Part shown: positions 13,373-28,988 of the stretch, piece by piece | Layout of the letters: each line of letters begins with the position of its first letter | Position numbering within the stretch: the stretch's first letter is position 1 | Assembly (NCBI GenBank): GCA_013298955.1 | Contig: JAAFJT010000013.1 | Location: forward strand, 1 to 64,000 | DNA length: 64,000 nt | DNA from: Chitinophagales bacterium | GTDB lineage: Bacteria > Bacteroidota > Bacteroidia > Chitinophagales > Saprospiraceae | Direction of reading: 5' to 3' | Program-made: the position numbers and the translations under genes | Notes under the pieces: generated by a model | What the model was told of the DNA's origin: nothing | The model's input: only the letters and a program-made list of their open reading frames with translations | Databases searched by the model: none

Positions 13373-14812
13373 ATGACCGACCATTTTTCAATACAATTTT
13401 TCTATTCAATGAGGTCTAACTTTCTGAAATTGAGACTGTTATACATTTTGCCATTTTTGTTTTTGTCGGGTGCTTTGTCGGCTGCCGATATCGCTGCGGG
13501 TAAAACATTGTTTTCTAACAATTGCGGTACTTGTCATGCCAAAGACATGAAATCCAAGCTCACGGGTCCCCCTTTATCGGGTGTGCAGGCAAAATGGGGC
13601 GATGATAAAGCCTTATACAGCTGGATTCGCAATTCACAAGCATCCATTGCCGCAGGTCAACCTAACGCGGTTGCCATCTGGAACGAGTACAAACCAACCG
13701 TCATGACGGCGTTTCCCAACTTGAAAGATGATGAAATCGCGTCTATCTTGTTGTATGTGGCAGATGCTGCAAATGGTGGTGGTAACAAAGGAACGGCTGT
13801 TGTTGCAAAACCAGGTGCCAAAAAATCGGGCAATGGCTTGATGTATGGACTTGTTTTCGCGCTTTTGGCGGGTCTTGCATTGGCGTTAGCACGTATCATT
13901 AGCAATTTGAACCGAACCGTTGCAGCAGCAGAAGGGGCAAATGTTGCGCCAACCACTTTGGTCGATACGTTGACCAGTAAAGGAGTGATTGGTTTTGTGG
14001 TGTTTGCTTTAATCGTTCTTGGCGGTTACACGACGGTCAATAATGCGATTTCGCTCGGACGCTCTCAGGAGTACGCGCCCTCTCAACCAATTAAGTTTTC
14101 CCATGCAACACACGCAGGTATTCAAAAAATTGATTGTCAGTACTGTCATGATGGTGCGAGACGGTCGAAACATTCGATTATTCCTGCTACCAATACGTGT
14201 ATGAATTGCCACAAGGCGATTACCAAAGGTTCGCAATACGGTACGGCGGAGATTACTAAAATCTTTGCATCTATCGGTTTCGACCCGAATACAGGTAAAT
14301 ACATTCCAAATTATGACAATTTGAAAGAGGAGCAAGTGGCTGAAGTCTATAAAACATGGATTGCAACCAACTACGCGGCGGATAAGAAATTAGACCCTGC
14401 GACGGCGGCTGCCAGCAAAGATGTCAAATTGGTGGCGGATGCGCAATGGAATGATATTGCTAAATCGTTGAAAACGGAAATCAAGGATAAAGTACAAGGT
14501 CCGATTCAATGGAAACGCGTCCATAATTTACCAGACCATGTGTATTTCAATCACGCTCAACACGTTACGGTTGGAAAAGTGACTTGTCAAAAATGTCATG
14601 GTGAAGTGGAAAAAATGGGTACTTTGAAACAAGCATCTCCTTTATCTATGGGCTGGTGTGTGAATTGTCACCGCGAAACGGAAGTCAAATTCAAGGATAA
14701 TGATTATTACAAATCTTATGCGCGTTACCACGAGGAAATTAAAAAAGGCACTCGTGAAAAAGTAACGGTCGAAGATATTGGTGGGTTGGAATGTCAAAAA
14801 TGTCATTACTAA
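13373..14812 (+). CDS. actA: Alternative complex III subunit ActA, multiheme cytochrome c
   Basis: A 479-residue multiheme cytochrome of the quinol:cytochrome c oxidoreductase (alternative complex III). A signal peptide ends near LSGALSA. A monoheme cytochrome c domain follows (CGTCH at residue 51), then two membrane helices (about 150-175 and 200-222), then five more heme motifs: CQYCH, CMNCH, CQKCH, CVNCH and a final CQKCH at the extreme C-terminus. The last five form the pentaheme domain known in ActA; the N-terminal monoheme is an addition, giving six in all. Start is uncertain: ATG at 13373 or ATG at 13409, the latter giving a cleaner signal peptide. First gene of the operon. Confidence 0.93.
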   Translation: MTDHFSIQFFYSMRSNFLKLRLLYILPFLFLSGALSAADIAAGKTLFSNNCGTCHAKDMKSKLTGPPLSGVQAKWGDDKALYSWIRNSQASIAAGQPNAVAIWNEYKPTVMTAFPNLKDDEIASILLYVADAANGGGNKGTAVVAKPGAKKSGNGLMYGLVFALLAGLALALARIISNLNRTVAAAEGANVAPTTLVDTLTSKGVIGFVVFALIVLGGYTTVNNAISLGRSQEYAPSQPIKFSHATHAGIQKIDCQYCHDGARRSKHSIIPATNTCMNCHKAITKGSQYGTAEITKIFASIGFDPNTGKYIPNYDNLKEEQVAEVYKTWIATNYAADKKLDPATAAASKDVKLVADAQWNDIAKSLKTEIKDKVQGPIQWKRVHNLPDHVYFNHAQHVTVGKVTCQKCHGEVEKMGTLKQASPLSMGWCVNCHRETEVKFKDNDYYKSYARYHEEIKKGTREKVTVEDIGGLECQKCHY

Positions 14813-15005: not shown

Positions 15006-15031
15006 AATCAAAATAAATGCTAATTTCAGTC

Positions 15032-18000
15032 ATGGAATTAAAGAATCAATCGGTTTGGACAGGCGTAGAGGATTTGACGAAAAGCGAATCCTTTATCGAA
15101 CTGGCAAGCCAAGAGTTTACGGATTTGCCTCAGTTGCCTTCGCAAGAAAATAATGGGTTCACTGCTACGCGCCGCGATTTTCTAAAATATTTAGGATTTA
15201 GCGTCGGTGCAGCGACAGTGGCGGCGAGTTGCGAAATCCCTGTGAAGCGGGCGATTCCGTATGTCACCAAACCGGATAGTATTGTGCCGGGTATTGCCAA
15301 TTATTATGCGTCTTCGTTTGTGAATGGCGGTGATTATGCAGCGATTTTGGTCAAAACGCGGGAAGGTCGTCCGATTAAAATTGAAGGCAATGATTTATCA
15401 AAAATCAATGGCAGTGGTACGAGTGCGCGCGCTCAAGCGGCTGTGTTGAGCCTTTACGATACGAATCGGATTGCAGAACCGTCTGCTATTGCGAATGGCA
15501 AGCCGACGAAAACGACTTGGGCGGAATTGGATAAGGTGGTAGCAGGTAAATTGTCTGCTGCGTCTCAAATTAGAATTTTGACGCATACCATTTTAAGCCC
15601 AATGACGAATAAGGCAATTGCGGAGTTTACTAAAAAATATCCTAATACGAAAGTTGTTACGTATGACCCTGTGTCAAGCGCGGCGATTTTGGCGGCAAAT
15701 GAGCAATCTTTTGGCGATAGAGTGATTCCAAATTACAAATTTGATGCGGCGGATGTGATTGTGAGTGTTGGGGCAGATTTTTTGGGAACTTGGATTTCGC
15801 CAACAGAATATGCGACGCAATATGCGAAAAATAGAAAAATTGCCAGTGCAGCCGAAGCTAAGATGTCTCGTCATATCCAAGTAGAAAGCTATATGTCATT
15901 GACTGGCTCGAATGCGGATAATCGGGTTTTAATCAAACCAAGCGAGCAAGGTGCGGCAATTGCGGCGTTATATAATGAAGTGGCGGCTTTATCAGGTGGG
16001 ATTGCGGTAGCAGCTCCTGCGTTGAATGCAAAAGCGGCAAAAGCGTTGAAAAAAGTAGCGGCTGAATTGGTTGCTGCAAAAGGTAAGTCGTTGATTATCA
16101 GTGGTTCTAACAATGTGGGCGAGCAAGTTTTAGTCAATGCGGCTAATAATTTGTTGGGCAATTACGGCGCGACGATTGATTTTACAGAGGCTTCTTTGCA
16201 ACGTCAAGGCGACGAAGCGAATGCACAAGCCTTGTTAGCGGAAATGTCGGGTGTGAATGCGGTATTCATTTTGGGTGCAAATCCTGTTTTTGAATTGCCG
16301 AATGGAGATAAATTTGCGGAAGCGTTGAAAAAAGCGGATTTGACGATTTCGTTCAATCCAATGATGGATGAAACGACGGCGGTTTGTAAATTTGCGGCTC
16401 CTGCAAATCATGGTTTGGAATCATGGGGCGATGCACAACCAAAACGGGGTCATTATAGTTTGGTTCAACCAACGATTAAACCGTTGTTTAATACGCGTCA
16501 AAGTGAGCAATCTTTGTTGACTTGGGCGGGTGCGTCTCCTGCAACGGAACAACCGATGTATGATTATTTGCGGGCGACTTGGCAAGCAGATATGTTTTCT
16601 AAACAACGAAATTATGCAACATTCAATGCGTTTTGGGATGCTACGTTACACAATGGCGTTTTCCAAGTTGCGGCAAATGCTGTAAAACCAACTTTCAAAG
16701 GCGATACAAACGGGGCAGCAGCAACGGTTACGCAACCTGTGAAAGCGGATGTGGAGATTACATTTTACGAAACAGTGAATATTGGCGGTGGTCAATATGC
16801 TAACAATCCTTGGTTGCAAGAAATGCCTGACCCAGTGACGCGCACGGTTTGGGGCAATGTATTGAGCGTTCCTGTCAAATGGGATGGCATCAATGATTTC
16901 AATGGTTTCAAGGATTTGAAAGATGGCGATAAAGTAGAAATTGAAGTTGCTGGTAAAAAATTGAAATGTACGGTGGTTCGCCAGTTTGGTCAACCTGAAG
17001 GAACGGTTGCGATTGCAGTCGGTTACGGACGGACTCAAGCGGGCTATTGTGGAACAGGTGTTGGAACGAATGTTCAAGCCGTGTTGCCAATGAAAGACGG
17101 ACGCGTTCAATATTTCGCTACGGCGAAGGTTTCGGGCAAAACAGGTGAAGATAAATCGTTTGCATCGGTGCAATATCACCACACTTTGGGGATAACAGGC
17201 ATGGGCAAAGAGGAGAAAGCCATTATCAATGTGGATGAAAAAGCATTGGGTTACAAAGGTTTTCAAGGTTCTTTGACGGCGCGGACGGTGATTCGCCGTA
17301 CGAATTTGAAAGAAGTCAAAAAATTTGCGGCTGAGTTGCAAACTGAACGCGCTCATCACCAAAAATTGAATAGTTATACTTTGTATCGCGGTCACATGGA
17401 TAAATATACTTCGGGTCATCACTGGGGTATGAACATTGATTTGAATGCGTGTACTGGTTGTGGAGCCTGTACGGTTGCGTGTATGGCGGAAAATAATGTA
17501 CCTGTTGTTGGAAAAGACGAAGTAGCAAGACATCATGAGATGGCTTGGTTGCGGATTGACCGTTATTATTATGGTGATGTTGAAAATCCAAATGTGGTTT
17601 ATCAACCGATGATGTGTCAACATTGCGATAATGCACCATGTGAAAACGTTTGTCCTGTCAATGCGACAAGTCATAGCAGCGAAGGTTTGAATCAAATGAC
17701 GTATAATCGTTGTATTGGTACGCGGTATTGTGCGAACAACTGCCCGTATAAAGTGCGTCGTTTCAACTGGCAAGATTACACCACCGCAGACATTTTCCCT
17801 TGGAATGAACGCGATTTGCGCGGCAAAACCTTGGGTTTCAGAACAGAAATGCCTTATGGTGCGGACAATTTGACGCGGATGGTTTTAAATCCAGACGTAA
17901 CAGTGCGTACACGCGGTGTGATTGAAAAGTGTAGTTTATGCGTTCAACGGATACAAGAAGGTAAGTTGACGGCGAAAAAAGAATCACGTCAATTGCGCGA

Positions 18001-18199
18001 TAGCGATGTGAAAGTGGCGTGTCAAACGGCGTGTCCGACTGGCGCGATTGTGTTTGGGGATAAAAACAATCCAGCATCGCAAGTGTCTAAGTTGAATCAA
18101 TCGGATATGAATTTTATCGTATTGGAAGAAATCAACGTCAAATCGAATATGACCTATTCGGTGAAAGTGACCAACCGCGACGAAAAATTGGAGGCTTAA
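15032..18199 (+). CDS. actB: Alternative complex III subunit ActB, molybdopterin/iron-sulfur fusion
   Basis: A 1055-residue peripheral subunit of alternative complex III. An N-terminal Tat-like sequence (TRRDFLKYLGFSVGAATVAA, near residue 50) directs export. Residues ~70-730 are a molybdopterin-oxidoreductase-like domain, which in characterised complexes lacks the cofactor. The C-terminal ferredoxin domain has four cysteine groups (CTGCGACTVAC; CQHCDNAPCENVC; CIGTRYCANNC; CSLC with CQTACP), binding four iron-sulfur clusters. I start at the ATG at 15032 (MELKNQSVW) because relatives begin this way; an ATG five codons earlier (15017) is possible. Confidence 0.94.
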   Translation: MELKNQSVWTGVEDLTKSESFIELASQEFTDLPQLPSQENNGFTATRRDFLKYLGFSVGAATVAASCEIPVKRAIPYVTKPDSIVPGIANYYASSFVNGGDYAAILVKTREGRPIKIEGNDLSKINGSGTSARAQAAVLSLYDTNRIAEPSAIANGKPTKTTWAELDKVVAGKLSAASQIRILTHTILSPMTNKAIAEFTKKYPNTKVVTYDPVSSAAILAANEQSFGDRVIPNYKFDAADVIVSVGADFLGTWISPTEYATQYAKNRKIASAAEAKMSRHIQVESYMSLTGSNADNRVLIKPSEQGAAIAALYNEVAALSGGIAVAAPALNAKAAKALKKVAAELVAAKGKSLIISGSNNVGEQVLVNAANNLLGNYGATIDFTEASLQRQGDEANAQALLAEMSGVNAVFILGANPVFELPNGDKFAEALKKADLTISFNPMMDETTAVCKFAAPANHGLESWGDAQPKRGHYSLVQPTIKPLFNTRQSEQSLLTWAGASPATEQPMYDYLRATWQADMFSKQRNYATFNAFWDATLHNGVFQVAANAVKPTFKGDTNGAAATVTQPVKADVEITFYETVNIGGGQYANNPWLQEMPDPVTRTVWGNVLSVPVKWDGINDFNGFKDLKDGDKVEIEVAGKKLKCTVVRQFGQPEGTVAIAVGYGRTQAGYCGTGVGTNVQAVLPMKDGRVQYFATAKVSGKTGEDKSFASVQYHHTLGITGMGKEEKAIINVDEKALGYKGFQGSLTARTVIRRTNLKEVKKFAAELQTERAHHQKLNSYTLYRGHMDKYTSGHHWGMNIDLNACTGCGACTVACMAENNVPVVGKDEVARHHEMAWLRIDRYYYGDVENPNVVYQPMMCQHCDNAPCENVCPVNATSHSSEGLNQMTYNRCIGTRYCANNCPYKVRRFNWQDYTTADIFPWNERDLRGKTLGFRTEMPYGADNLTRMVLNPDVTVRTRGVIEKCSLCVQRIQEGKLTAKKESRQLRDSDVKVACQTACPTGAIVFGDKNNPASQVSKLNQSDMNFIVLEEINVKSNMTYSVKVTNRDEKLEA

Positions 18200-18204
18200 A
18201 TTCA

Positions 18205-18236
18205 TGTTTCGGAAATTTGAAAAAGTTTCCGAAACA
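18205..18236. repeat. Hairpin between actB and actC
   Basis: 11-base perfect arms (18205-18215 and 18226-18236), TGTTTCGGAAA and complement, starting five bases after the actB stop. An open frame extending actC upstream through it would be spurious. Confidence 0.7.
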
Positions 18237-18263
18237 TCCAAATACTTAAAAAATAATTTTAAT

Positions 18264-19694
18264 ATGAGTGCAAGAGTTTCTCCACTAAGAGAGCCGTTGA
18301 TTCTCGGTAATAAAAATTATCACCAAATCACGGAAGATATTTGCGCCCCGACGGAACGCGCTCCGAGCAGACAATGGATTATCGGATTTATGATTGCGGT
18401 TGCGGGTTTAGGTTTATATTTATTCAGTGTGATATGGACGGTTTGGAATGGTATCGGTTCATGGAACTTGAATAGAACGATTGGTTGGGGATGGGACATC
18501 ACAAACTTTGTTTGGTGGGTCGGTATTGGTCACGCAGGTACGTTGATTTCGGCGATTTTGTTGTTGTTACGTCAGAAATGGCGGACGGGTGTAAACCGTG
18601 CAGCAGAAGCGATGACGATTTTTGCGGTTATTTGCGCGGGTCAATTCCCGATAATCCACATGGGACGGGTTTGGATGGCGATTTTCATCTTCCCGTATCC
18701 AAATACACGCGGTCCTTTGTGGCCCAACTTTAACTCGCCCTTATTTTGGGACGTATTTGCGATTTCGACGTATTTCACCGTATCTTTATTATTCTGGTAC
18801 ACAGGTTTAGTACCCGATTTTGCAACAGTGCGCGATAGAGCAACCGGTTGGAGAAGAAAATTATATGATAATTTAGCTTTTGGCTGGACAGGTTCTGCGA
18901 AACACTGGCAACGGTGGGAAGCGTTATCCTTGGTTTTGGCAGGTATTTCAACGCCTTTGGTACTTTCTGTACACACAATTGTAAGTTTTGACTTCGCAAC
19001 TTCGGTGATTCCGGGTTGGCATACGACGATTTTCCCACCATACTTCGTTGCGGGAGCGATTTTTTCAGGGTTTGCAATGGTTCAAACGTTGATGTTAGTC
19101 GTGCGTAAGTTGTTCAAGTTGGAAGATTATATTACCTTGCAACACGTTGAATCGATGAATAAAGTCATCGTTTTGACGGGAACGATTGTAGGGGTTGCCT
19201 ATTTGACCGAGTTGTTTATCGCATGGTACTCAGGTTACATTTACGAACAATTTGCTTTTTACAATCGCGCAATGGGTATCTATTGGTGGTCGTATTTCGG
19301 AATGATGTTATGTAATGTATTGTCACCGCAAATTTTCTGGGTTAAAAAATATCGCCGCGATTTGTGGGTGACGTTCTTTATGTCCATTTTTATCAATATT
19401 GGGATGTGGTTTGAGCGTTTTGTCATCATCGCAACGACGTTAGCACGCGATTATTTACCATCATCTTGGTCTTATTATTCGCCAAGTTGGGTCGAAATCG
19501 GTTTATTTGTTGGTTCATTGGGCTTATTTTTCACTTGTTTCTTGATATTTGCTCGGATTGCACCAGTAGTTGCGATAGCAGAAATCAAAAGTATTTTGAA
19601 AACCATGGGCGACCAATACACAGGGGTCAATGCTTTAAACAAAAAGCATGATGACCACGATTTACATACAGAAGATGCTCACGGACATCATTAA
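18264..19694 (+). CDS. actC: Alternative complex III subunit ActC, NrfD-like quinol-binding membrane subunit
   Basis: A 476-residue polytopic NrfD/PsrC-family protein with about ten membrane helices. In alternative complex III this subunit carries the quinol site and contacts ActB. Family segments include TERAPSRQWIIGF near the N-terminus and IHMGRVWMAIFIFPYPNTRG. The start is the ATG at 18264 (MSARVSPLREPL); the frame is open upstream, but that part crosses an intercistronic hairpin. The C-terminal tail is histidine-rich (HDDHDLHTEDAHGHH), which is unusual and may bind metal or be an accident of composition. Confidence 0.95.
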   Translation: MSARVSPLREPLILGNKNYHQITEDICAPTERAPSRQWIIGFMIAVAGLGLYLFSVIWTVWNGIGSWNLNRTIGWGWDITNFVWWVGIGHAGTLISAILLLLRQKWRTGVNRAAEAMTIFAVICAGQFPIIHMGRVWMAIFIFPYPNTRGPLWPNFNSPLFWDVFAISTYFTVSLLFWYTGLVPDFATVRDRATGWRRKLYDNLAFGWTGSAKHWQRWEALSLVLAGISTPLVLSVHTIVSFDFATSVIPGWHTTIFPPYFVAGAIFSGFAMVQTLMLVVRKLFKLEDYITLQHVESMNKVIVLTGTIVGVAYLTELFIAWYSGYIYEQFAFYNRAMGIYWWSYFGMMLCNVLSPQIFWVKKYRRDLWVTFFMSIFINIGMWFERFVIIATTLARDYLPSSWSYYSPSWVEIGLFVGSLGLFFTCFLIFARIAPVVAIAEIKSILKTMGDQYTGVNALNKKHDDHDLHTEDAHGHH

Positions 19695-19742: not shown

Positions 19743-20273
19743 ATGAAAGTTTATAATAAAGAAATTTTATACGGCTTATATGATGACGAAGTACCTTTGT
19801 TAAGAGCCGTAAGCGCAGCGCAAAAATCGCATTTAGATATATGGGACGTGTTTTCACCTTTTCCCGTACACGGGCTTGACCCGATTTTGGGATTGGAAGA
19901 ATCACGTTTGCACCAAGCAGGTTTTATTTTCGGTATGACGGGAACCGCAACTGCTTTGGGTTTTATGAGTTGGGCATTTTTGAAAGATTGGCCCATCATT
20001 TTTGGGAATAAACCATATTGGCCTTTGCCATCGTTTATTCCAGTGACGTTTGAGTTGACGGTTTTATTTGCGTCAGTGGGGATGGTTATCACGTTTTACA
20101 CCATTTGCGGCATGGGACCTGGGGTTAAAAACCCAACGCTGCATGACCGTATTACAGACGATAAATTTTGTATAGCTTTCGATGTAAGTGGCGCGAGTGC
20201 TGCGGAAGTGGAAAAATATCAATCTTTTTTCGCCAAAACGGGTGCATCCGAAGTGACTACAAAGCGAATTTAA
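19743..20273 (+). CDS. actD: Alternative complex III subunit ActD
   Basis: A 176-residue membrane subunit matching the ActD (DUF3341) family. Two helices occur near residues 60-85 and 100-125 (FIFGMTGTATALGFMSWAF; PVTFELTVLFASVGMVITFY). Short soluble segments lie on both sides. It has no cofactor and stabilises the membrane part of the complex. It lies 48 bases after actC and is followed five bases after its stop by a long family D inverted repeat. Confidence 0.93.
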   Translation: MKVYNKEILYGLYDDEVPLLRAVSAAQKSHLDIWDVFSPFPVHGLDPILGLEESRLHQAGFIFGMTGTATALGFMSWAFLKDWPIIFGNKPYWPLPSFIPVTFELTVLFASVGMVITFYTICGMGPGVKNPTLHDRITDDKFCIAFDVSGASAAEVEKYQSFFAKTGASEVTTKRI

Positions 20274-20416: not shown

Positions 20417-21292
20417 ATGAAAAAGATATTTTTATACGGCATTTTAGCGACGACGGTAGTATTCTCATTCGAGGCGTGTTCGCCTGCGCATGGCAATCAT
20501 CCTGGTCACGAATACATGCCAGATATGGGTCACTCGGTTGCACAAGAAGCGAATATTTACAATGGCTATTCGCTCAATACTTGGGATAAGCAAAGCGTCA
20601 AGTCCTTGAAAGAGCTTTCTCAACCGCGCAATACGGTTGCTGGTACGATTCCGAGAGGTTCCGTTGGGATGTCTGCGACAGGGAATGCTGCGGATATGAT
20701 GGCGATGTTGACAGGTGCGGGCAATAGTGTTTCTACGCCTATCAATGGCAATGTGCCTTACTATTACGGCGATGATGAGGCAGAACGCACCCGTGCAACC
20801 AAAGAAATTGTGGTCAATCCATTCCCAATCACTAAAAAAGGGTTAGAAGAAGGGAAAGAATTGTTTAGAATTTACTGCGGGATTTGTCATGGTGAAAAGG
20901 GTGGTGGAGACGGCTACCTTGCGAATGGGCCCGATGCAAAATATTTGGCACAACCTGCAAATCTCTTGTTAGACACGTTTGTAAATGGCAATAATGGTCG
21001 TTTATATCATGCAATCATGTATGGTAAAAATGTCATGGGTTCTTATGCAGACAAGTTGAGTTATGAGGAGCGTTGGAAAGTGATTCATTACATCCGTGCG
21101 TGTCAAGCGGATTCTAAGAAGTTGATTTACAACGATAAACAGAATACATTTAAACCGAATTTTGGGATTCCAGATTCGATTTATAAGGCAACTTTGGCGG
21201 GTAAAACAGGGGTTCAAAAACCTGCTGCTGCTCCTGCTGTCGCAACGGCGAAACCTGTAACAACGAGTAAGCCCGCACCAAAAGGTAAATAA
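20417..21292 (+). CDS. actE: Alternative complex III subunit ActE, monoheme cytochrome c lipoprotein
   Basis: A 291-residue membrane-anchored cytochrome c. The N-terminus is a lipoprotein signal with Cys20-21 region (FSFEACS). A linker rich in Gly/Met precedes a single cytochrome c domain with heme motif CGICH near residue 154 and a downstream Met-containing loop (YGKNVMGSYADKL). The tail is Ala/Pro/Lys-rich. In characterised complexes ActE passes electrons from the pentaheme ActA to the terminal acceptor. Confidence 0.93.
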   Translation: MKKIFLYGILATTVVFSFEACSPAHGNHPGHEYMPDMGHSVAQEANIYNGYSLNTWDKQSVKSLKELSQPRNTVAGTIPRGSVGMSATGNAADMMAMLTGAGNSVSTPINGNVPYYYGDDEAERTRATKEIVVNPFPITKKGLEEGKELFRIYCGICHGEKGGGDGYLANGPDAKYLAQPANLLLDTFVNGNNGRLYHAIMYGKNVMGSYADKLSYEERWKVIHYIRACQADSKKLIYNDKQNTFKPNFGIPDSIYKATLAGKTGVQKPAAAPAVATAKPVTTSKPAPKGK

Positions 21293-21361: not shown

Positions 21362-22846
21362 ATGCGTCATAATCACTTCACCTTTGAAGCGAAGCAGAAA
21401 AATGTGTTTATTGGGATGATGGTGATAGGCTTAATCAGCTTAATATGGTCTTATTTTGACAATACAGTACCAAACCATACTCGTTTCTGGACTAATTTTT
21501 TGCATAACGCTGCCTTTTTTACAGGTATTGGCTTTGCTGCTACCTTTTTGATTGCTGCTAAGATTACGGCTTATTCGGGCTGGCACACCGTTTTCAAAAG
21601 ACTTTGGGAAGCGTATTCCTTATTTCTTTTGGTCGGTTTGGGCTTGATGGGTGTTGTTTTAGTGGGCGTTTGGGGCAATTTGCACCATTTATACCACTGG
21701 GCTGACGTAAAAGCAGTTGCAGGAGACCCTATTTTGAAAGGAAAAGCGTCGTTTTTGAACAAATATTGGTACACGTTGGCAACCTTTGGTTTCGTCGGTG
21801 TATGGTATTTCTTTGCTCAAAAATTTAGAAAGCTTTCGATTGAACAAGATAATGCTTCTCTTGATACCCGTTACCCAATTTATTTGACCGCTAAAAAATG
21901 GGGTGCTGGTTTCATGCCGATTGCAGGTTTTACGAGTGTAGCCGTGATTTGGCAATGGTTGATGTCTTTGGATGCACATTGGTACAGTACCATGTATGGC
22001 TGGTACACGATTGCAAGTTGGGTAGTTAGTATGATTGCTATCACTATTTTGATGTTAATCTATTTAAAATCATTGGGTTATTACCCACAAGTGTCGAAAG
22101 AACACTTACATGATTTGGGTAAATACTTATTTGCATTCAGTATTTTCTGGACGTACTTGTGGTTTTCACAATATATGTTAATTTGGTATGCCAATGTTGG
22201 GGAAGAAACGGTTTATTTCCGCATTCGGATGGGTGAATTTCCGATTTTGTTTTACGGCAATTTGGTTTTAAACTTCGTTTTACCGTTTTTAATCTTGATT
22301 CGGAACGATACGAAACGCAAAACGGGTTCATTGGGATTCATTGCGGCGATAGTATTATTCGGGCATTGGATTGATTTTTTCCAAATGGCTAAAATCGGAC
22401 CTTACAAATCCGCTTTGGAACATCATGCAGCAGCAGGTCATGGCGCGAGTCATGGCGAAGCAACGCATGGGGCGGTTGTAGCAGACCCACATGCTGCCAC
22501 TACTGCACCAAAAGCGGCGGTTCACACCGAAGAGACAGCAAAAACAGGTCATGCAACGCCTGCACCCGCAGATGCTCATGTCGCACATGAGGCGCATGAA
22601 GGATTGACGGTTGCTTCGGACGCACACGCGACTCCTGCAAAAGTGGATGTGATGGAACCCGATAATTATTTCCATTACAATCCAGATTTGACCCCAGGTT
22701 TTGCCTTTCCGGGATTTTTAGAAATCGGAACGATGTTAGGCTTTGCAGGTTTGTTTTTATTCTTTGTCTTTGGACAATTGACGAAAGCGAGTTTAGTGCC
22801 TACAAATGACCCATACTTGGAAGAAACGTTACATCATCACGTATAG
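21362..22846 (+). CDS. actF: Alternative complex III subunit ActF, with histidine/alanine-rich insertion
   Basis: A 494-residue polytopic membrane subunit related to ActC; relatives form the second membrane core of the complex. About nine or ten helices precede residue ~345. A low-complexity His/Ala-rich stretch of about 80 residues (around 355-435, e.g. HHAAAGHGASHGEATHG) then interrupts the protein before the last helix (GTMLGFAGLFLFFVFGQL). The tail ends ETLHHHV. The insertion is not part of the fold and could be a flexible surface loop or metal-binding segment. Last subunit of the act set, 88 bases before coxB. Confidence 0.93.
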   Translation: MRHNHFTFEAKQKNVFIGMMVIGLISLIWSYFDNTVPNHTRFWTNFLHNAAFFTGIGFAATFLIAAKITAYSGWHTVFKRLWEAYSLFLLVGLGLMGVVLVGVWGNLHHLYHWADVKAVAGDPILKGKASFLNKYWYTLATFGFVGVWYFFAQKFRKLSIEQDNASLDTRYPIYLTAKKWGAGFMPIAGFTSVAVIWQWLMSLDAHWYSTMYGWYTIASWVVSMIAITILMLIYLKSLGYYPQVSKEHLHDLGKYLFAFSIFWTYLWFSQYMLIWYANVGEETVYFRIRMGEFPILFYGNLVLNFVLPFLILIRNDTKRKTGSLGFIAAIVLFGHWIDFFQMAKIGPYKSALEHHAAAGHGASHGEATHGAVVADPHAATTAPKAAVHTEETAKTGHATPAPADAHVAHEAHEGLTVASDAHATPAKVDVMEPDNYFHYNPDLTPGFAFPGFLEIGTMLGFAGLFLFFVFGQLTKASLVPTNDPYLEETLHHHV

Positions 22847-22934: not shown

Positions 22935-24458
22935 ATGACCGGCTTAATTGCGATAGCAAGTGTAGTGCTGTTGGGCGTAGTGGCAGTACAAATCGGTAAA
23001 ATTAGTGATATATTTGCCAAAATTCGCGGGGAAGAGGCTTCTCAACATGAGAGTAACCTGTTTAACGGGCGTTTAGGATTATTTTTCGTGGTTTCATTTT
23101 TAATATTCTGTGTAGGTTCTGCATGGTATTACAAAAATGACATGTTAGGTTATGGTCCGCACGTTTCAGCGTCTGCGCATGGCGAATGGTTAGATTGGTT
23201 ATTCAATGTAACTTTATTTTTCACAGGTATCGTATTCGTGTTGACGCACCTTGCCTTATTCTGGTTTGCGTACAAATATCGCGGTGAAACAGGTCGTAAA
23301 TCCTTGTTCATCGTGCATGATAACAAACTTGAAGTGATTTGGACAGCAATTCCAGCTGTGGTCATGTTCGGATTGGTTATCAGTGGTTTGTGGGTTTGGA
23401 ATAATGCGATGGATGACATTAAAGAAGGCGAAGATTATTTGGAAATTGAGGCAACTGGCTCACAGTTTCTTTGGGATATTCGCTATCCGGGCAAAGATGG
23501 TGCTTTGGGAACGAAAAATTATAAATTGATTTTACCCGGTAAAAACGATTTAGGTCAAGATTGGAGAGACGCTAAAAACTTAGACGACTTCAAAGCAGAC
23601 GAAATTGTATTGCCTGTTGGTAAGAAAATTCGGGTTCGGATTACAGCGAAAGACGTATTACACAATTTCGATTTGCCCCATTTCCGCGTGAAAATGGATG
23701 CAATTCCTGGTTTGCCGACTTATTTCGTGTTTACGCCGAAGTTGACGACGGAACAATATCGTTTGCAATTGAAAAAATATGCAGACCAAAATGTTCCTTA
23801 CGATGCGGCAGAACCGAATGGTCCAAAACGTTGGGAAAAATTTGAATACGAATTAGCTTGTGCGGAATTATGTGGAAAAGGTCACTTTTCCATGCGCAAA
23901 TTGGTCAAAATCGTTACACCGCAGGAGTACGAAAAGTGGGCAGCAGCGCAAGTGCCTTATTACGAGCAAAATGTAAAAGGAAAAGAATGGGATACTTCTG
24001 TAACTGTTGAACCAACGCCTGCGCCTGTTGTTGAACCAACAGCAACAACGGCAGTTCCTGCGGCAGCAGCACCTGCGGAATTTTCAGCAGCAGCTGTAGA
24101 AAAAGCGGCAGCAGGTTCTGTTTTACAATTGAATCATGTTACCTTTGCATCAGCTTCTTCGGCATTGACTCCAGAATCGTCTAAGGAATTGGACGTGATT
24201 GTGGAACTATTGAAAAAAAGTACTAAAATGACAGTTGAAATTGATGGTCATACCGATAATGTCGGTGATAAAGCCAAAAATAAAAAATTGTCAGAGGATA
24301 GAGCCAAAGCTGTAGAAGCGTATGTGGAAAGCAAAGGGATTGCAAAAGAGCGCATGAATGCAATGGGTTACGGCGATGCAAAGCCGCTTGTCCCGAACAC
24401 AACGCCTGAAAACAAGCAGAAGAATCGAAGAACCGAATTCAAAATTTTGACAAAATAA
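22935..24458 (+). CDS. coxB: Cytochrome c oxidase subunit II fused to an OmpA-like domain
   Basis: A 507-residue subunit II. Membrane helices lie near residues 1-20, 47-67, 82-112 and 132-155. The periplasmic cupredoxin domain carries an intact CuA site: HNFDLPHFRVKMD and C309-x3-C313-x3-H317-x2-M320. After an Ala/Pro-rich linker (about 355-400) there is a complete OmpA-like domain (405-507), with VTFASASSALT, the peptidoglycan-binding IDGHTDNVGD and the helix LSEDRAKAVEAYV. Other long subunit II proteins carry cytochrome c at this place; here the heme domain is absent. The fusion would tether the oxidase to peptidoglycan. No frame disruption is seen, so it is one gene. Confidence 0.93.
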   Translation: MTGLIAIASVVLLGVVAVQIGKISDIFAKIRGEEASQHESNLFNGRLGLFFVVSFLIFCVGSAWYYKNDMLGYGPHVSASAHGEWLDWLFNVTLFFTGIVFVLTHLALFWFAYKYRGETGRKSLFIVHDNKLEVIWTAIPAVVMFGLVISGLWVWNNAMDDIKEGEDYLEIEATGSQFLWDIRYPGKDGALGTKNYKLILPGKNDLGQDWRDAKNLDDFKADEIVLPVGKKIRVRITAKDVLHNFDLPHFRVKMDAIPGLPTYFVFTPKLTTEQYRLQLKKYADQNVPYDAAEPNGPKRWEKFEYELACAELCGKGHFSMRKLVKIVTPQEYEKWAAAQVPYYEQNVKGKEWDTSVTVEPTPAPVVEPTATTAVPAAAAPAEFSAAAVEKAAAGSVLQLNHVTFASASSALTPESSKELDVIVELLKKSTKMTVEIDGHTDNVGDKAKNKKLSEDRAKAVEAYVESKGIAKERMNAMGYGDAKPLVPNTTPENKQKNRRTEFKILTK

Positions 24459-24488: not shown

Positions 24489-26330
24489 ATGGCTAACGTG
24501 CAGTATAAAGATCCAGAAGAAATGATTGCGGAAACCGGTTGGAATGACCATTTCCATGAGCATCATCACGGGGATAAGTATCAGTCTAATTTTTTTGCAA
24601 CGTATATTTTTAGCACTGACCACAAAATGATTTCAAAACAATTCTTGATTACAGGGATGTTTTGGGCATTGATTGGTGCTGCGATGTCTATCATTTTCCG
24701 CCTTCAATTGGGTTTTCCAGAGGCAGATTTGAGTTGGTTACAACCAATTCTCGGCAAATGGATTGTCGTGAATGAGGGGATTGGTAAACTCGACCCAGAA
24801 TTTTATTATGCGTTGGTGACAATGCACGGAACAATCATTGTATTTTTCGTGTTAACGGCAGGTTTGAGTGGTACCTTTTCAAATTTATTGATTCCATTGC
24901 AACTCGGCGCACGAGATATGGCATCAGGTTTTTTGAATATGTTATCGTACTGGTTTTTCTTCTTGTCGAGTGTGGCAATGTTTTATTCGTTATTTTTAAA
25001 TACGGGTCCATTCGCAGGTGGCTGGACGGCTTACCCGCCATTGAGTGCCTTGCCGCAAGCCTCTTCAGGCTCGGGCGCAGGGATGACTTTGTGGACGGTT
25101 AGTTTAGCTTTATTCGTCGTATCGGTTTTGTTAGGCGGGATGAATTATATCACCACCGTGCTAAACTTGCGGACGAAAGGGATGACGATGTGGCGGATGC
25201 CTTTGACGATTTGGGCATTTTTGGTAACAGCTATTCTTGGTTTGTTATCCTTTCCTGTATTGTTATCAGGTTTATTTTTAATGTTATTTGATAGAGGTTT
25301 GGGAACAAGTTTCTATTTGAGTGAAATTTTCATTGGTGGTAAAGCCTTAGACCATGTAGGTGGTAGCCCGATTTTATATCAACATTTATTCTGGTTCTTA
25401 GGACACCCCGAAGTATATATCATCATCCTTCCCGCAATGGGTTTGGTGTCAGAAGTCTTAGCTACACATGCGCGTAAACCGATTTTTGGTTACAGAGCGA
25501 TGGTTTATTCCATGTTGGCGATTGGCTTTTTGTCGTTCATTGTTTGGGCGCATCATATGTTTATGTCAGGTGTAAATCCTTGGATTTCAAACTTTTTCGT
25601 GGTATTTACCTTGATTATTGCGGTTCCGTCTGCGGTAAAAGTGTTTAACTGGATTGGTACTTTATATGGTGGTAATATTCGATTCAATTCTGCGATGTTA
25701 TTTTCGATAGGATTCGTTTCGATGTTTATCTCAGGTGGTTTGACAGGTATCTTTTTGGGTAACTCGGCGATAGATATTCAAATGCACGATACGTATTTCG
25801 TGGTGGCGCATTTCCATATCGTAATGGGTATTGCAGCGTTCTTTGGCATGTTTGCAGGGATTTACCATTGGTATCCAAAAATGTTTGGTACGTTTATGAA
25901 CGAAACATTGGGTAAAATCCACTTTTGGGGGACTATTTTCGGAGCGTATGCGATTTTCTGGCCCATGCACTACTTAGGGATGGCAGGTGTGCCGCGTCGT
26001 TATTACAGTTTTGACGCATTTGATGCGTTCAAACACTTCGCAGATACCAACAAATTTATTACAACAGCTGCGATTGTCGTATTTGCATTACAAGTTATGT
26101 TTGTTATCAATTTCTTCTATTCGATTTGGAAAGGTAAGAAAATGACAACGCCAAATCCTTGGTTGTCCACTACTTTGGAATGGACAACCCCGATTGAAGC
26201 GGGACATGGTAACTGGGTAGGCAATTTGCCAGTGGTACATCGCTGGGCATACGATTACGGGAAAGACGGGAAAGATTACATCCCACAAATCGAGCCAATG
26301 GGCAAAGATGAATCGGATTCTGACCACTAA
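24489..26330 (+). CDS. coxA: Cytochrome c oxidase subunit I
   Basis: The 613-residue catalytic subunit of the aa3-type oxidase, reducing oxygen to water and pumping protons. Twelve or more helices. Key residues: the cross-linked His-Tyr of CuB in GHPEVYIIILPAMG, the His pair in WAHHMF, and heme ligands in HDTYFVVAHFHIVMG. The N-terminus has a His-rich leader (DHFHEHHHGDKY) before the first helix. Its ATG is 30 bases after coxB, so both are cotranscribed. A perfect 24-bp-arm hairpin follows the stop. Confidence 0.97.
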   Translation: MANVQYKDPEEMIAETGWNDHFHEHHHGDKYQSNFFATYIFSTDHKMISKQFLITGMFWALIGAAMSIIFRLQLGFPEADLSWLQPILGKWIVVNEGIGKLDPEFYYALVTMHGTIIVFFVLTAGLSGTFSNLLIPLQLGARDMASGFLNMLSYWFFFLSSVAMFYSLFLNTGPFAGGWTAYPPLSALPQASSGSGAGMTLWTVSLALFVVSVLLGGMNYITTVLNLRTKGMTMWRMPLTIWAFLVTAILGLLSFPVLLSGLFLMLFDRGLGTSFYLSEIFIGGKALDHVGGSPILYQHLFWFLGHPEVYIIILPAMGLVSEVLATHARKPIFGYRAMVYSMLAIGFLSFIVWAHHMFMSGVNPWISNFFVVFTLIIAVPSAVKVFNWIGTLYGGNIRFNSAMLFSIGFVSMFISGGLTGIFLGNSAIDIQMHDTYFVVAHFHIVMGIAAFFGMFAGIYHWYPKMFGTFMNETLGKIHFWGTIFGAYAIFWPMHYLGMAGVPRRYYSFDAFDAFKHFADTNKFITTAAIVVFALQVMFVINFFYSIWKGKKMTTPNPWLSTTLEWTTPIEAGHGNWVGNLPVVHRWAYDYGKDGKDYIPQIEPMGKDESDSDH

Positions 26331-26340
26331 TTGTTGAAGG

Positions 26341-26390
26341 TGGATTTTGAGGATTTATTGGATTTCAATCCAATAAATCCTCAAAATCCA
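26341..26390. repeat. Inverted repeat after coxA (family D)
   Basis: Perfect 24-base arms (26341-26364 and 26367-26390) around a 2-base loop, arm TGGATTTTGAGGATTTATTG and on. It lies between coxA and ctaB, 28 bases before the ctaB start. Confidence 0.85.
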
Positions 26391-26417
26391 TATTCAAAAC
26401 TAATCCTAATTGATGTA

Positions 26418-27314
26418 ATGATAAAAGTTGAAAAGGCGAGTTTCGGCAACGCGATTCGGCAAAAAATAACAGATATAGGCATTTTAATGAAATTCAAATT
26501 GTCCTTAACCGTCGTTTTTTCGGCAGTGATGGCATTTTTGATAGCATTAAAGACCCCTGTGAATGGTTGGGAATTGGCTATCCTATTTTTAGGAGGTTTT
26601 TTTGTGACAGGCGCGGCAAATGCACTGAATCAGGTTTTAGAAAAAGACTACGACCGTTTGATGAAGCGCACGGAAAACCGCCCATTGAGCGCAGGACGGA
26701 TGAATTCGTCAGAAGCTGTATTAATCGCAGGACTTTCTGCCTTGATTGGTATTTCTTTTTTGGCATTATTCAACCCGATTTCTGCCTTTTTGGGTATGAT
26801 TTCGTTGATAAGTTACTCGTTTGTTTATACGCCGATGAAACGCGTATCGAATGTAGCAGTGCCTATCGGCGCGATTCCGGGCGCATTGCCTATGGTCATT
26901 GGATGCACCGCCGCAGAAAACGGTACTCTAAGCATTTTAGCATTGACGCTTTTCGGCTTACAATTTTTTTGGCAATTTCCACATTTTTGGGCAATCGCAT
27001 GGTTAGGAGATGAAGATTATAAAAATGCAGGTTTCAAATTATTGCCTTCTAAGGACGGCGAAAAAGATGAAAATGTTGGTTTTCAATCTTTTATATATGC
27101 TTTGTTTTTAATACCTATGAGTTGGGTATCGTTTGCATTCGGGATTACAGGGATTATTTCTGCTGTTATATTGACCACGATTGCGATGATTTATGCTTAT
27201 TACGGATGGCGATTATTCAAAGAATGTACGCGAGAGGCAGCACGCAAACTCATGTTTTTTTCTTTTTTCTATTTACCAGTCATGTTATTTGCCCTCTATT
27301 TTGACAAAATGTAA
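26418..27314 (+). CDS. ctaB: Protoheme IX farnesyltransferase (heme O synthase)
   Basis: A 298-residue UbiA-family prenyltransferase that adds a farnesyl group to heme B, the step toward the heme A used by CoxA. The first Asp-rich motif is NQVLEKDYDRLMKRTENRPL; the second is in LGDEDYKNAGFKLLP. About eight or nine membrane helices. Start is the ATG at 26418 (MIKVEKASFGN); the frame is open upstream to coxA but that part reads through the intercistronic hairpin. Location inside the oxidase operon supports the call. Confidence 0.95.
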   Translation: MIKVEKASFGNAIRQKITDIGILMKFKLSLTVVFSAVMAFLIALKTPVNGWELAILFLGGFFVTGAANALNQVLEKDYDRLMKRTENRPLSAGRMNSSEAVLIAGLSALIGISFLALFNPISAFLGMISLISYSFVYTPMKRVSNVAVPIGAIPGALPMVIGCTAAENGTLSILALTLFGLQFFWQFPHFWAIAWLGDEDYKNAGFKLLPSKDGEKDENVGFQSFIYALFLIPMSWVSFAFGITGIISAVILTTIAMIYAYYGWRLFKECTREAARKLMFFSFFYLPVMLFALYFDKM

Positions 27315-27425: not shown

Positions 27426-27998
27426 ATGAAAGCGGTGATTCAAAACAATCAAAACAAAATCCATCCCCATAAATTAGCTTTATGGATAGGATGTGGCAGT
27501 GTTACCATGATGTTTGCCGCATGGTCAAGCGCGTATGTAGTGCGTCACGCGGCGGGCAATTGGTTGGAATTTCAAATTCCGACCCAATTTTTCATCAACA
27601 CCGTTTTACTGTTGTTGAGCAGCGTAACCTTACATTTATCCTACAAAGCGTTTGTAAAAGGAGAAGAATTTAAATATAAATCGTTGTTAGTAACGACTTT
27701 TTTGATAGGGATTACTTTTTTAATCTTGCAATATCAAGGCTGGGTGGCTTTGAAAAACATTGGTGTTCCATTGACTAAAAACCCATCAGGCGATTTTGTC
27801 TATGTGATGTCAGGATTTCACGCAGCCCATTTAATTGGCGGATTAGGCGTTTTGACGGTAGCCATGGTTCACGCCTTTGTGTTGAAATTCAACCCGACTC
27901 CGCGCCGACAATTGCGATTAGAATTGACCCTTCATTTTTGGCATTACTTAGATTTTTTGTGGTTATATTTGTTTATATTTTTATTGTCGCAAAGTTAA
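27426..27998 (+). CDS. Cytochrome c oxidase subunit III-like protein (first copy)
   Basis: A 190-residue, five-helix protein of the heme-copper oxidase subunit III family. The C-terminal signature (LTLHFWHYLDFLWLYLFIFL) and the SGFHAAHLIGGLG segment match subunit III. It is shorter than the neighbouring subunit III (307 residues), and two tandem subunit III-type genes at this place are usual in Bacteroidota oxidase operons. It stabilises subunit I and may guide oxygen entry. It is part of the operon, with a small hairpin right at its stop codon. Confidence 0.88.
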   Translation: MKAVIQNNQNKIHPHKLALWIGCGSVTMMFAAWSSAYVVRHAAGNWLEFQIPTQFFINTVLLLLSSVTLHLSYKAFVKGEEFKYKSLLVTTFLIGITFLILQYQGWVALKNIGVPLTKNPSGDFVYVMSGFHAAHLIGGLGVLTVAMVHAFVLKFNPTPRRQLRLELTLHFWHYLDFLWLYLFIFLLSQS

Positions 27999-28064: not shown

Positions 28065-28988
28065 ATGGCTCACGCAACAGTTGACCACGATGTACATCAC
28101 GACCATGAAGAAAAAGCTGCTTACTGGGAAGGTGGCAGAGAAGCCTTCAAAGCCAGTTATGGCAAGTTGATGATGTGGTATTTTCTCTTGTCGGATGCGT
28201 TCACATTTGCTGGATTTTTGATAGCCTATGGGACGTTGCGTTTTAGCATGCCGACTTGGCCCGTTCCAGATTTCGTATTTCAAGCGTTTCCGACGTTTGG
28301 GGTGATTCCTGAAGCTTGGGCGCACCACATGCCTTTGGTTTTCGTCTCCATGATGACCTTGATATTGATTATCAGTTCGGTGACGATGGTTCGTGCCGTA
28401 CAAGAAGGGCAGCAAAACAATAAAAGAGGGGTTGTTTTCTGGATGTTGTTGACCGTTTTGGGCGGTGCAGCCTTTTTAGGTTGTCAGGCTTGGGAATGGA
28501 CGACGTTGATTAAAGGGGAAAATGTGTCGATAACACGCAATCCTTTTGGTCGCCATGAAGTCAATGGCACTTATACGGTCGATACACACGGAGAGGCATA
28601 TAAAGAAGGTGTAAAAGCGGAGAAATTTGAAAAAGGACATGGCTATTTGTTACATGCGCAAACAGACCATGTAACGCATCAACCTGTTTTGGATGAAAAC
28701 GGAGAACCGAAATTCATTCACCGCAGTTTTGTAACGGATAAAGGCGAAAAAGGCGAATTAAGTTTTGGACCCAAAGCATTTGGCGCATTATTCTTTTTCA
28801 TTACAGGATTTCATGGTTTCCACGTATTTTCGGGCGTTGCTTTTTTATTAATCATCATGTTGAATGTAGCGAGTGGTTTGTATGAACGCCGCAACAATCA
28901 TTATGAAATGGTTGAAAAAATTGGTTTATACTGGCACTTTGTCGATTTGGTGTGGGTGTTCGTGTTTTTAGTATTTTATTTGTTGTAA
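28065..28988 (+). CDS. coxC: Cytochrome c oxidase subunit III (second copy)
   Basis: A 307-residue subunit III. Five to seven helices with the conserved ITGFHGFHVFSGVAFLL and C-terminal YWHFVDLVWVFVFLVFYLL. A hydrophilic loop of about 75 residues (roughly 160-240) separates two helices, more than in the canonical subunit. The N-terminus is histidine-rich (MAHATVDHDVHHDHEEK). Reads in the same direction 66 bases after the first copy. Confidence 0.93.
   Translation: MAHATVDHDVHHDHEEKAAYWEGGREAFKASYGKLMMWYFLLSDAFTFAGFLIAYGTLRFSMPTWPVPDFVFQAFPTFGVIPEAWAHHMPLVFVSMMTLILIISSVTMVRAVQEGQQNNKRGVVFWMLLTVLGGAAFLGCQAWEWTTLIKGENVSITRNPFGRHEVNGTYTVDTHGEAYKEGVKAEKFEKGHGYLLHAQTDHVTHQPVLDENGEPKFIHRSFVTDKGEKGELSFGPKAFGALFFFITGFHGFHVFSGVAFLLIIMLNVASGLYERRNNHYEMVEKIGLYWHFVDLVWVFVFLVFYLL

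Follow-up and report, generated by a model that had tools for sequence, protein, structure and literature searches.

The product of coxB in the window, which is the whole stretch of 64,000 nucleotides of Chitinophagales bacterium DNA analysed here, joins a cytochrome oxidase subunit II to a carboxyl-terminal OmpA-like domain. What does the oxygen-consuming respiratory enzyme of these aquatic bacteria hold with such a domain, and how widely is the arrangement kept? These questions are approached from the architecture of the protein, the genes that surround it, the distribution and ancestry of the added domain, and the residues expected to contact the cell wall.

Architecture of the window CoxB

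The gene is a single open frame of 507 codons that starts with ATG and has no internal stops. Its features, with the evidence in brackets, are the following.

22935-24458, + strand: coxB, cytochrome oxidase subunit II with C-terminal OmpA-like domain, 507 aa (open reading frame, Pfam)
22938-23144, + strand: two predicted N-terminal helices, CoxB residues 2-70, preceding the COX2 transmembrane hairpin (AlphaFold2 secondary structure)
23160-23378, + strand: COX2_TM transmembrane hairpin, residues 76-148 (PF02790, 1.8e-9)
23436-23975, + strand: CuA cupredoxin domain, residues 168-347 (PF00116 at 170-260; AlphaFold2 model; foldseek to COX2 chains)
23859-23894, + strand: CuA motif C309-x-E-x-C313-x3-H317-x2-M320 (alignment, invariant in 29 sequences)
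23976-24116, + strand: linker, residues 348-394, of which 358-383 are predicted disordered, pLDDT <50 (AlphaFold2)
24141-24428, + strand: OmpA-like domain, residues 403-498 (PF00691, 3.5e-24, 98/98 profile positions; foldseek)
24255-24302, + strand: predicted diaminopimelate-binding pair D441 ... R456 (sequence; kept in 79/79 fusion domains, 61 on CoxB and 18 on ActE)

The Pfam matches exceed their gathering cut-offs for COX2_TM (38.1 versus 22.8 bits), COX2 (residues 170-260, 47.7 versus 22 bits) and OmpA (85.4 versus 27.2 bits, profile positions 1-98 of 98). A sequence-only reading of this DNA had described the CuA domain as complete on the strength of C309, C313, H317 and M320. The four ligands are confirmed and H243 and E311 are added to them, all six being invariant in 29 aligned CoxB sequences. 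The protein scores 126.6 bits against TIGR02866, the NCBIfam equivalog model of CoxB, whose cut-off is 147.7 bits. By this score it is a divergent member of subunit II, an assignment that fits its CuA ligands and gene neighbourhood. A scan of the whole protein found no CxxCH haem motif such as marks the caa3 type, which rules out a cytochrome c in the tail.

The AlphaFold2 model, built on the 29-sequence alignment (mean pLDDT 77.7), has two folded parts with the disordered residues 358-383 between them. In foldseek searches the first resembles COX2 chains and the second Capnocytophaga OmpA (5wtl; 1.2 A over 105 columns), so that the C-terminal OmpA-like domain of the earlier reading is upheld by profile and by fold. 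The MotB, Pal and YiaD models of NCBIfam also match this domain, every one below its cut-off. The Ala/Pro linker noted in the same reading holds for the window protein but is not a family trait: across the CoxB-OmpA family the 45 residues preceding the OmpA start are mixed in composition, with A, D, E and K the commonest. Between the Met ligand and the beginning of OmpA lie 54 to 92 residues (n=62).

Gene cluster coding ACIII and the aa3-type oxidase

The coxB gene stands in the order actA-actB-actC-actD-actE-actF-coxB-coxA-ctaB-coxC, all on the + strand. The genes for alternative complex III (ACIII) are thus directly upstream of those for the oxidase and on one strand with them, the layout that characterizes an ACIII-linked aa3 oxidase. 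The start of coxA lies 30 bases past the coxB stop. The neighbouring genes are:

13373-14812, + strand: actA, cytochrome c with six CxxCH motifs and an N-terminal cytochrome c domain (Pfam, motif scan)
15017-18199, + strand: actB, iron-sulfur / molybdopterin-type subunit (Pfam)
18204-19694, + strand: actC, NrfD-like (PF03916)
19743-20273, + strand: actD (PF11821)
20417-21292, + strand: actE, 291 aa, one CxxCH, lipobox-like FEAC, no OmpA domain here although orthologues elsewhere have one (Pfam, motif scan, locus comparison)
21362-22846, + strand: actF (gene order and homology between loci; no Pfam match)
24489-26330, + strand: coxA, subunit I (PF00115, 4.7e-143)
26331-27314, + strand: UbiA prenyltransferase, ctaB by position (PF01040)
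27426-27998, + strand: coxC, short subunit III, 190 aa, covering only profile positions 128-253 of 258 (PF00510)
28065-28988, + strand: second subunit-III-like protein, 307 aa (NCBIfam matches below cut-off)

The layout of the cluster, the features of ActA and ActE, and the short subunit III resembling that of Flavobacterium johnsoniae make it likely, by analogy, that an ACIII-aa3 supercomplex forms in the window organism. The link to ACIII by gene order is not universal, since in one surveyed locus that codes both CoxB-OmpA and CoxA (L085, genome G027) the upstream stretch of about 11 kb shows no recognised act gene. In L060 and L065 the ActC frames reach 610-615 aa and have some 140 additional aa at the C terminus; those of the remaining listed loci span roughly 440-525 aa.

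Distribution of the fusion

The family coded f1 is taken as Saprospiraceae because its members are intermixed with named relatives (13 of 22 Saprospiraceae) in one clade of 67 rows with support 100. Within this clade of the CoxB/CoxA tree CoxB-OmpA is found in 54 of the 66 rows of known state, while nine of the 66 loci have neither this fusion nor one on ActE. The fusion is present in 39 of 47 f1 loci with a full-length CoxB. Its recurrence in tens of separately assembled genomes disposes of the objection that a frameshift or a chimera had joined two genes in the window, and no assembly error has to be invoked. The 51 f1 genomes divide into 39 with CoxB-OmpA, three with ActE-OmpA, five with neither, one with a truncated CoxB (G028) and three without a CoxB match (G001, G011 and G023). 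In G023, where coxA is present, and G011, where actB is present, the missing match is likely due to contig breaks. G001, a 98% complete genome from the window's own genus, has no match to actB and matches coxA only weakly; the entire ACIII-aa3 cluster is probably absent from it.

All 19 f1 genomes within the sample of the order carry the fusion. Outside f1, CoxB-OmpA occurs in six of the 122 genomes of the order with a CoxB match (G054, G059, G072, G088, G107 and G150, belonging to families f4, f8, f18 and f19), a count based on 62 fetched loci, the remaining frames being of at most 400 aa and some of them fragments. No OmpA domain was found on CoxB or ActE in the 46 loci of the class outside the order (L130-L165, L206-L215); of the 36 long-frame loci from these other orders, 17 code a CoxB with a CxxCH haem motif. 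In a second sample of the class (295 genomes), the best ~155 of 198 matching genomes include only the three of f1 as matches to the whole fusion profile.

Several loci depart from the common pattern. L014 comes from a contig titled Thermoanaerobaculia (Acidobacteriota), codes CoxB-OmpA and is nested in the Saprospiraceae clade; it is probably a misbinned contig of 5.6 kb. The CoxB of G022 (L092:11074-12585, 504 aa) is extended at its C terminus by about 150 aa in which no OmpA domain or haem motif is recognised. In L112, L119, L120 and L121 (f14) and in L152 and L153 (f35) subunit II has 477-488 aa and its match splits at query residue ~208-221, so that these proteins probably have a long insertion inside the CuA domain.

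Alternation between CoxB and ActE

The OmpA domain is also found on ActE, the monohaem subunit of ACIII, in 18 of 137 loci. Two of these, L174 and L175, were placed by hand, their frames being interrupted by runs of N. Family f12 has ActE-OmpA in 13 of the 15 rows with ActE in view (the two hand-assigned rows among the 13) and f2 in both of its rows; in both families the domain is at the ActE carboxyl terminus and CoxB is short. Three of the 47 f1 rows (G004, G006 and G034) have the same arrangement. The 137-row table and the tree exclude loci with a broken or truncated CoxB (L023, L030, L113, L114, L128) or with none (L115), as well as L130-L165, the 36 loci outside the order that were inspected separately. 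Four rows without ActE in view are scored "?".

Both genes are in view at 130 loci, of which 56 have CoxB-OmpA, 18 ActE-OmpA, 56 neither and none both; the CoxB-OmpA rows L013, L018 and L085, where ActE is not in view, are dropped from this count. Fisher tests of exclusivity, which ignore kinship, give p 1.6e-5 overall and p 0.0055 within the Saprospiraceae clade (51 CoxB, three ActE, nine neither). Independent pairs drawn on the CoxB/CoxA tree (five or nine) never change in the same direction for both labels, with a sign-test median p of 1 from zero to two differing pairs, too few for significance, which would take at least six. The alternation is thus seen in the sampled loci, whose clade-bound composition falls short of statistical proof. 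A search for linker remnants on the subunit that lacks the OmpA domain gave no support. An OmpA gene near L136 was set aside because it codes for an unrelated protein. The structure model of an ActE-OmpA protein has a mean pLDDT of 55.7 and, among its domains, only the OmpA part is confident. In the f2 loci L105:8386-9855 and L106:5363-6682 a long histidine-rich linker lies between the haem and OmpA domains of ActE.

Parsimony on the FastTree CoxB/CoxA tree requires 13 changes for the CoxB-OmpA label and six for ActE-OmpA, gains and losses being indistinguishable. Several separate appearances or losses are what would be seen if OmpA domains, of which 12-45 were found among the matches listed in each of 12 genomes, fused readily to other proteins and the fusion were tolerated with no selected function. 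Such neutral accretion is nevertheless very improbable, as the CoxB fusion is kept through a deep family clade, in 54 of its 66 rows, and the D/R pair is unbroken in every one of the fusion domains.

Origins of the OmpA domains

The tree of OmpA domains has 117 columns and little resolution, and uses 28 of the 55 Saprospiraceae CoxB-OmpA domains (24 taken at random, the window's own and three chosen). An AU test on it fails to reject a single clade of all CoxB-OmpA domains (p 0.79). Nor is one clade of all f1 fusion domains rejected (p 0.735). A quick tree had hinted at a separate origin of the window's domain; this was withdrawn, as the one-clade arrangement scores above the free tree (AU p 0.762). 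The window's domain has a median identity of 44% to the other Saprospiraceae domains, versus 50% among those, its nearest single rows being at 51% (on ActE) and 50% (on CoxB), and these identities leave its origin unsettled. A hop of the domain from CoxB to ActE within Saprospiraceae is likewise unsupported: the quick tree keeps the OmpA domains of the three f1 ActE proteins apart from those of CoxB.

Identities between families are more telling. Between f8, f18 and f19 the OmpA domains on CoxB share 74-76% identity, against 44-55% for the CoxB cores, and along these proteins identity climbs from roughly 30% over the linker to 68-80% over the OmpA domain. The same domains have 31-38% identity to the CoxB OmpA domain of f4. 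Among the matches listed, the f8 domain shares 73% identity with the OmpA domain of a membrane pyrophosphatase coded in its own genome, G088, and 65% with the OmpA part of a DUF937-OmpA protein from G054. The gap between these domains and that of f4, together with the close copies that other proteins of these genomes carry, indicates from sequence that domains of more than one OmpA subfamily are attached to CoxB. A lateral transfer of the module among f8, f18 and f19 is possible; in view of the close copies in G088 and G054, repeated recruitment fits as well.

Predicted peptidoglycan binding

The Asp/Arg pair expected of a diaminopimelate-binding domain is present as D441 and R456. Its equivalents are kept in 61/61 CoxB-OmpA and 18/18 ActE-OmpA domains. 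The NxxLSxxR residues are intact in all 79 and the NRR motif in 78 of the 79. D441 and R456 are 15 residues apart, the spacing of D271 and R286 in Acinetobacter baumannii OmpA, which calorimetry reported in the consulted part of PMC6572160 found critical for diaminopimelate binding. Note that 28 of 30 rows of background OmpA domains (two being one domain) have the pair as well, so that its conservation tells only of an intact domain. From these residues the CoxB OmpA domain may be expected to bind peptidoglycan, and its linker would in principle be long enough to reach the wall.

The domain might instead bind a periplasmic or outer-membrane protein, or dock one partner complex on the other (ACIII on the oxidase). 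A docking domain, too, would be expected to alternate between the two partners in a supercomplex. A purely docking domain, however, need not retain the D/R pair and the NxxLSxxR and NRR residues with the constancy described above, and the use of more than one OmpA subfamily runs contrary to one specific protein partner. Docking in place of peptidoglycan binding is accordingly judged improbable.

A proposed single tether for the supercomplex

The reading that we prefer, with a probability of about 0.6, is that the OmpA domain is the single wall tether of an ACIII-aa3 supercomplex, hung on either CoxB or ActE. CoxB would be the CuA subunit of an aa3-type oxygen reductase partnered with ACIII. 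Its carboxyl-terminal domain would lie in the periplasm on a flexible leash and grip the diaminopimelate of peptidoglycan non-covalently, one tether tying the whole supercomplex to the wall. Catalysis would be unaltered, electrons moving from the haems of ACIII through CuA to haem a. The key to the arrangement would be one OmpA domain per supercomplex, carried mostly by CoxB in f1 and by ActE in other lineages and in the three f1 members. The likely effect is less lateral mobility and a fixed spacing between inner membrane and wall, a physiological role that we propose by inference.

The sequence-only reading had suggested that the oxidase, or a supercomplex of it with ACIII, is anchored to the cell wall and so placed in the envelope. 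Anchoring remains the best reading, in keeping with the complete domain, the intact predicted D/R pair, the periplasmic side, the flexible linker and the ACIII-aa3 cluster; peptidoglycan binding, formation of the supercomplex and an effect on envelope position are its inferred parts. The ActE-borne domains of related lineages point to the supercomplex, rather than the oxidase alone, as the tethered unit. The tether would be dispensable, given the nine Saprospiraceae-clade loci with neither fusion.

A different use of the same grip would be a staple of the envelope, in which the respiratory complex is an abundant inner-membrane scaffold and the OmpA domain holds the wall to the inner membrane by a MotB- or Pal-like cross-link that does nothing for respiration. 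The position of the domain on either of two periplasmic subunits agrees with this, as do the membrane pyrophosphatase-OmpA fusions of the same order, for which a respiratory role is unneeded. An additional staple looks redundant, however, where OmpA-domain proteins are so many (the 12-45 listed matches per genome cited above, and 26 such proteins besides CoxB in G000), and the domain is missing in nine of 66 relatives. We consider the staple unlikely, though less so than docking.

A broader form of the tether reading is held more tentatively, with somewhat less than even odds: a wall-fixed respirasome in Saprospiraceae and several sister families, in which one peptidoglycan tether can sit on CoxB or on ActE and has been drawn from different OmpA subfamilies on more than one occasion. 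Microscopy is the usual means of asking whether respiratory complexes move about freely in the bacterial envelope or are fixed. A candidate tether encoded in the enzyme itself, on two alternative subunits and in many species, makes wall attachment directly testable, with the tether-free relatives in the Saprospiraceae clade as natural controls. The CoxB/ActE alternation is also indirect evidence that ACIII and the aa3 oxidase act as one unit in these bacteria.

Comparison with known systems

Among the closest known systems is the ACIII-aa3 of F. johnsoniae, in which, according to the parts of PMC8552683 and PMC8361435 used here, ActA-F are combined with an aa3-type oxidase, ActA has six haems and an N-terminal monohaem domain, and ActE is a lipid-anchored monohaem protein. 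The two complexes were isolated together (PMC8552683), and a subunit III without the first two helices, resembling the short subunit III of the window, contacts ACIII (PMC8361435). Deletion of actE left ACIII-aa3 activity comparable to wild type and slowed growth (PMC8552683). The difference lies in the OmpA domain: the consulted text of PMC8552683 mentions none on a subunit and names OmpA only as a promoter, and a term search of the PMC8361435 text found neither "ompa" nor "peptidoglycan".

The caa3-type subunit II likewise has an added carboxyl-terminal domain, with the difference that it carries the CxxCH that the window CoxB lacks. The MotB, Pal and YiaD anchors share the OmpA-like domain family with the window CoxB. 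MotB sits in the inner membrane and has a domain in the periplasm that binds peptidoglycan; these anchors are not known to be fused to redox enzymes. A core subunit of another bioenergetic membrane complex, the photosynthetic one, offers a further parallel: residues 725-866 of PsaB in photosystem I (PDB 7f4v) match residues 369-506 of the window CoxB (phmmer 8.5e-19), which include the OmpA region, so that by sequence this PsaB has an OmpA-like domain. We take 7f4v to be the structure from the Gloeobacter photosystem I paper, and the C-terminal extension of PsaB has reportedly been described earlier. In that paper PsaB is modelled to residue 727 only, and a term search of its main text found neither peptidoglycan nor OmpA (PMC9000952).

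An inner-membrane pump with an OmpA-like domain is already known. Membrane pyrophosphatases of Paucibacter and others have such a domain at the carboxyl terminus, with a role described as still to be elucidated in the consulted part of PMC11210485. They are alike in being inner-membrane ion pumps; as far as that part of the paper goes, they differ in being another enzyme of other bacteria (some of them Burkholderiales), with no respiratory supercomplex and no alternation between subunits. Among the titles and abstract beginnings listed in searches of open-licence PMC, no paper dealt with an OmpA domain on CoxB or ActE, and the alternation between these two is the part that looks new. Membrane-bound pyrophosphatase-OmpA proteins are also found in at least three of 149 genomes of the order sampled here (L253 and L256 in G088, where PF03030 and PF00691 are both confirmed, L257 in G059 and L259 in G087), with a fragment of one in G097. 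G088 and G059 have both CoxB-OmpA and pyrophosphatase-OmpA. If the wall-fixed respirasome is real, it would join these OmpA-tailed pyrophosphatases in a general habit of pinning proton or sodium pumps to the wall.
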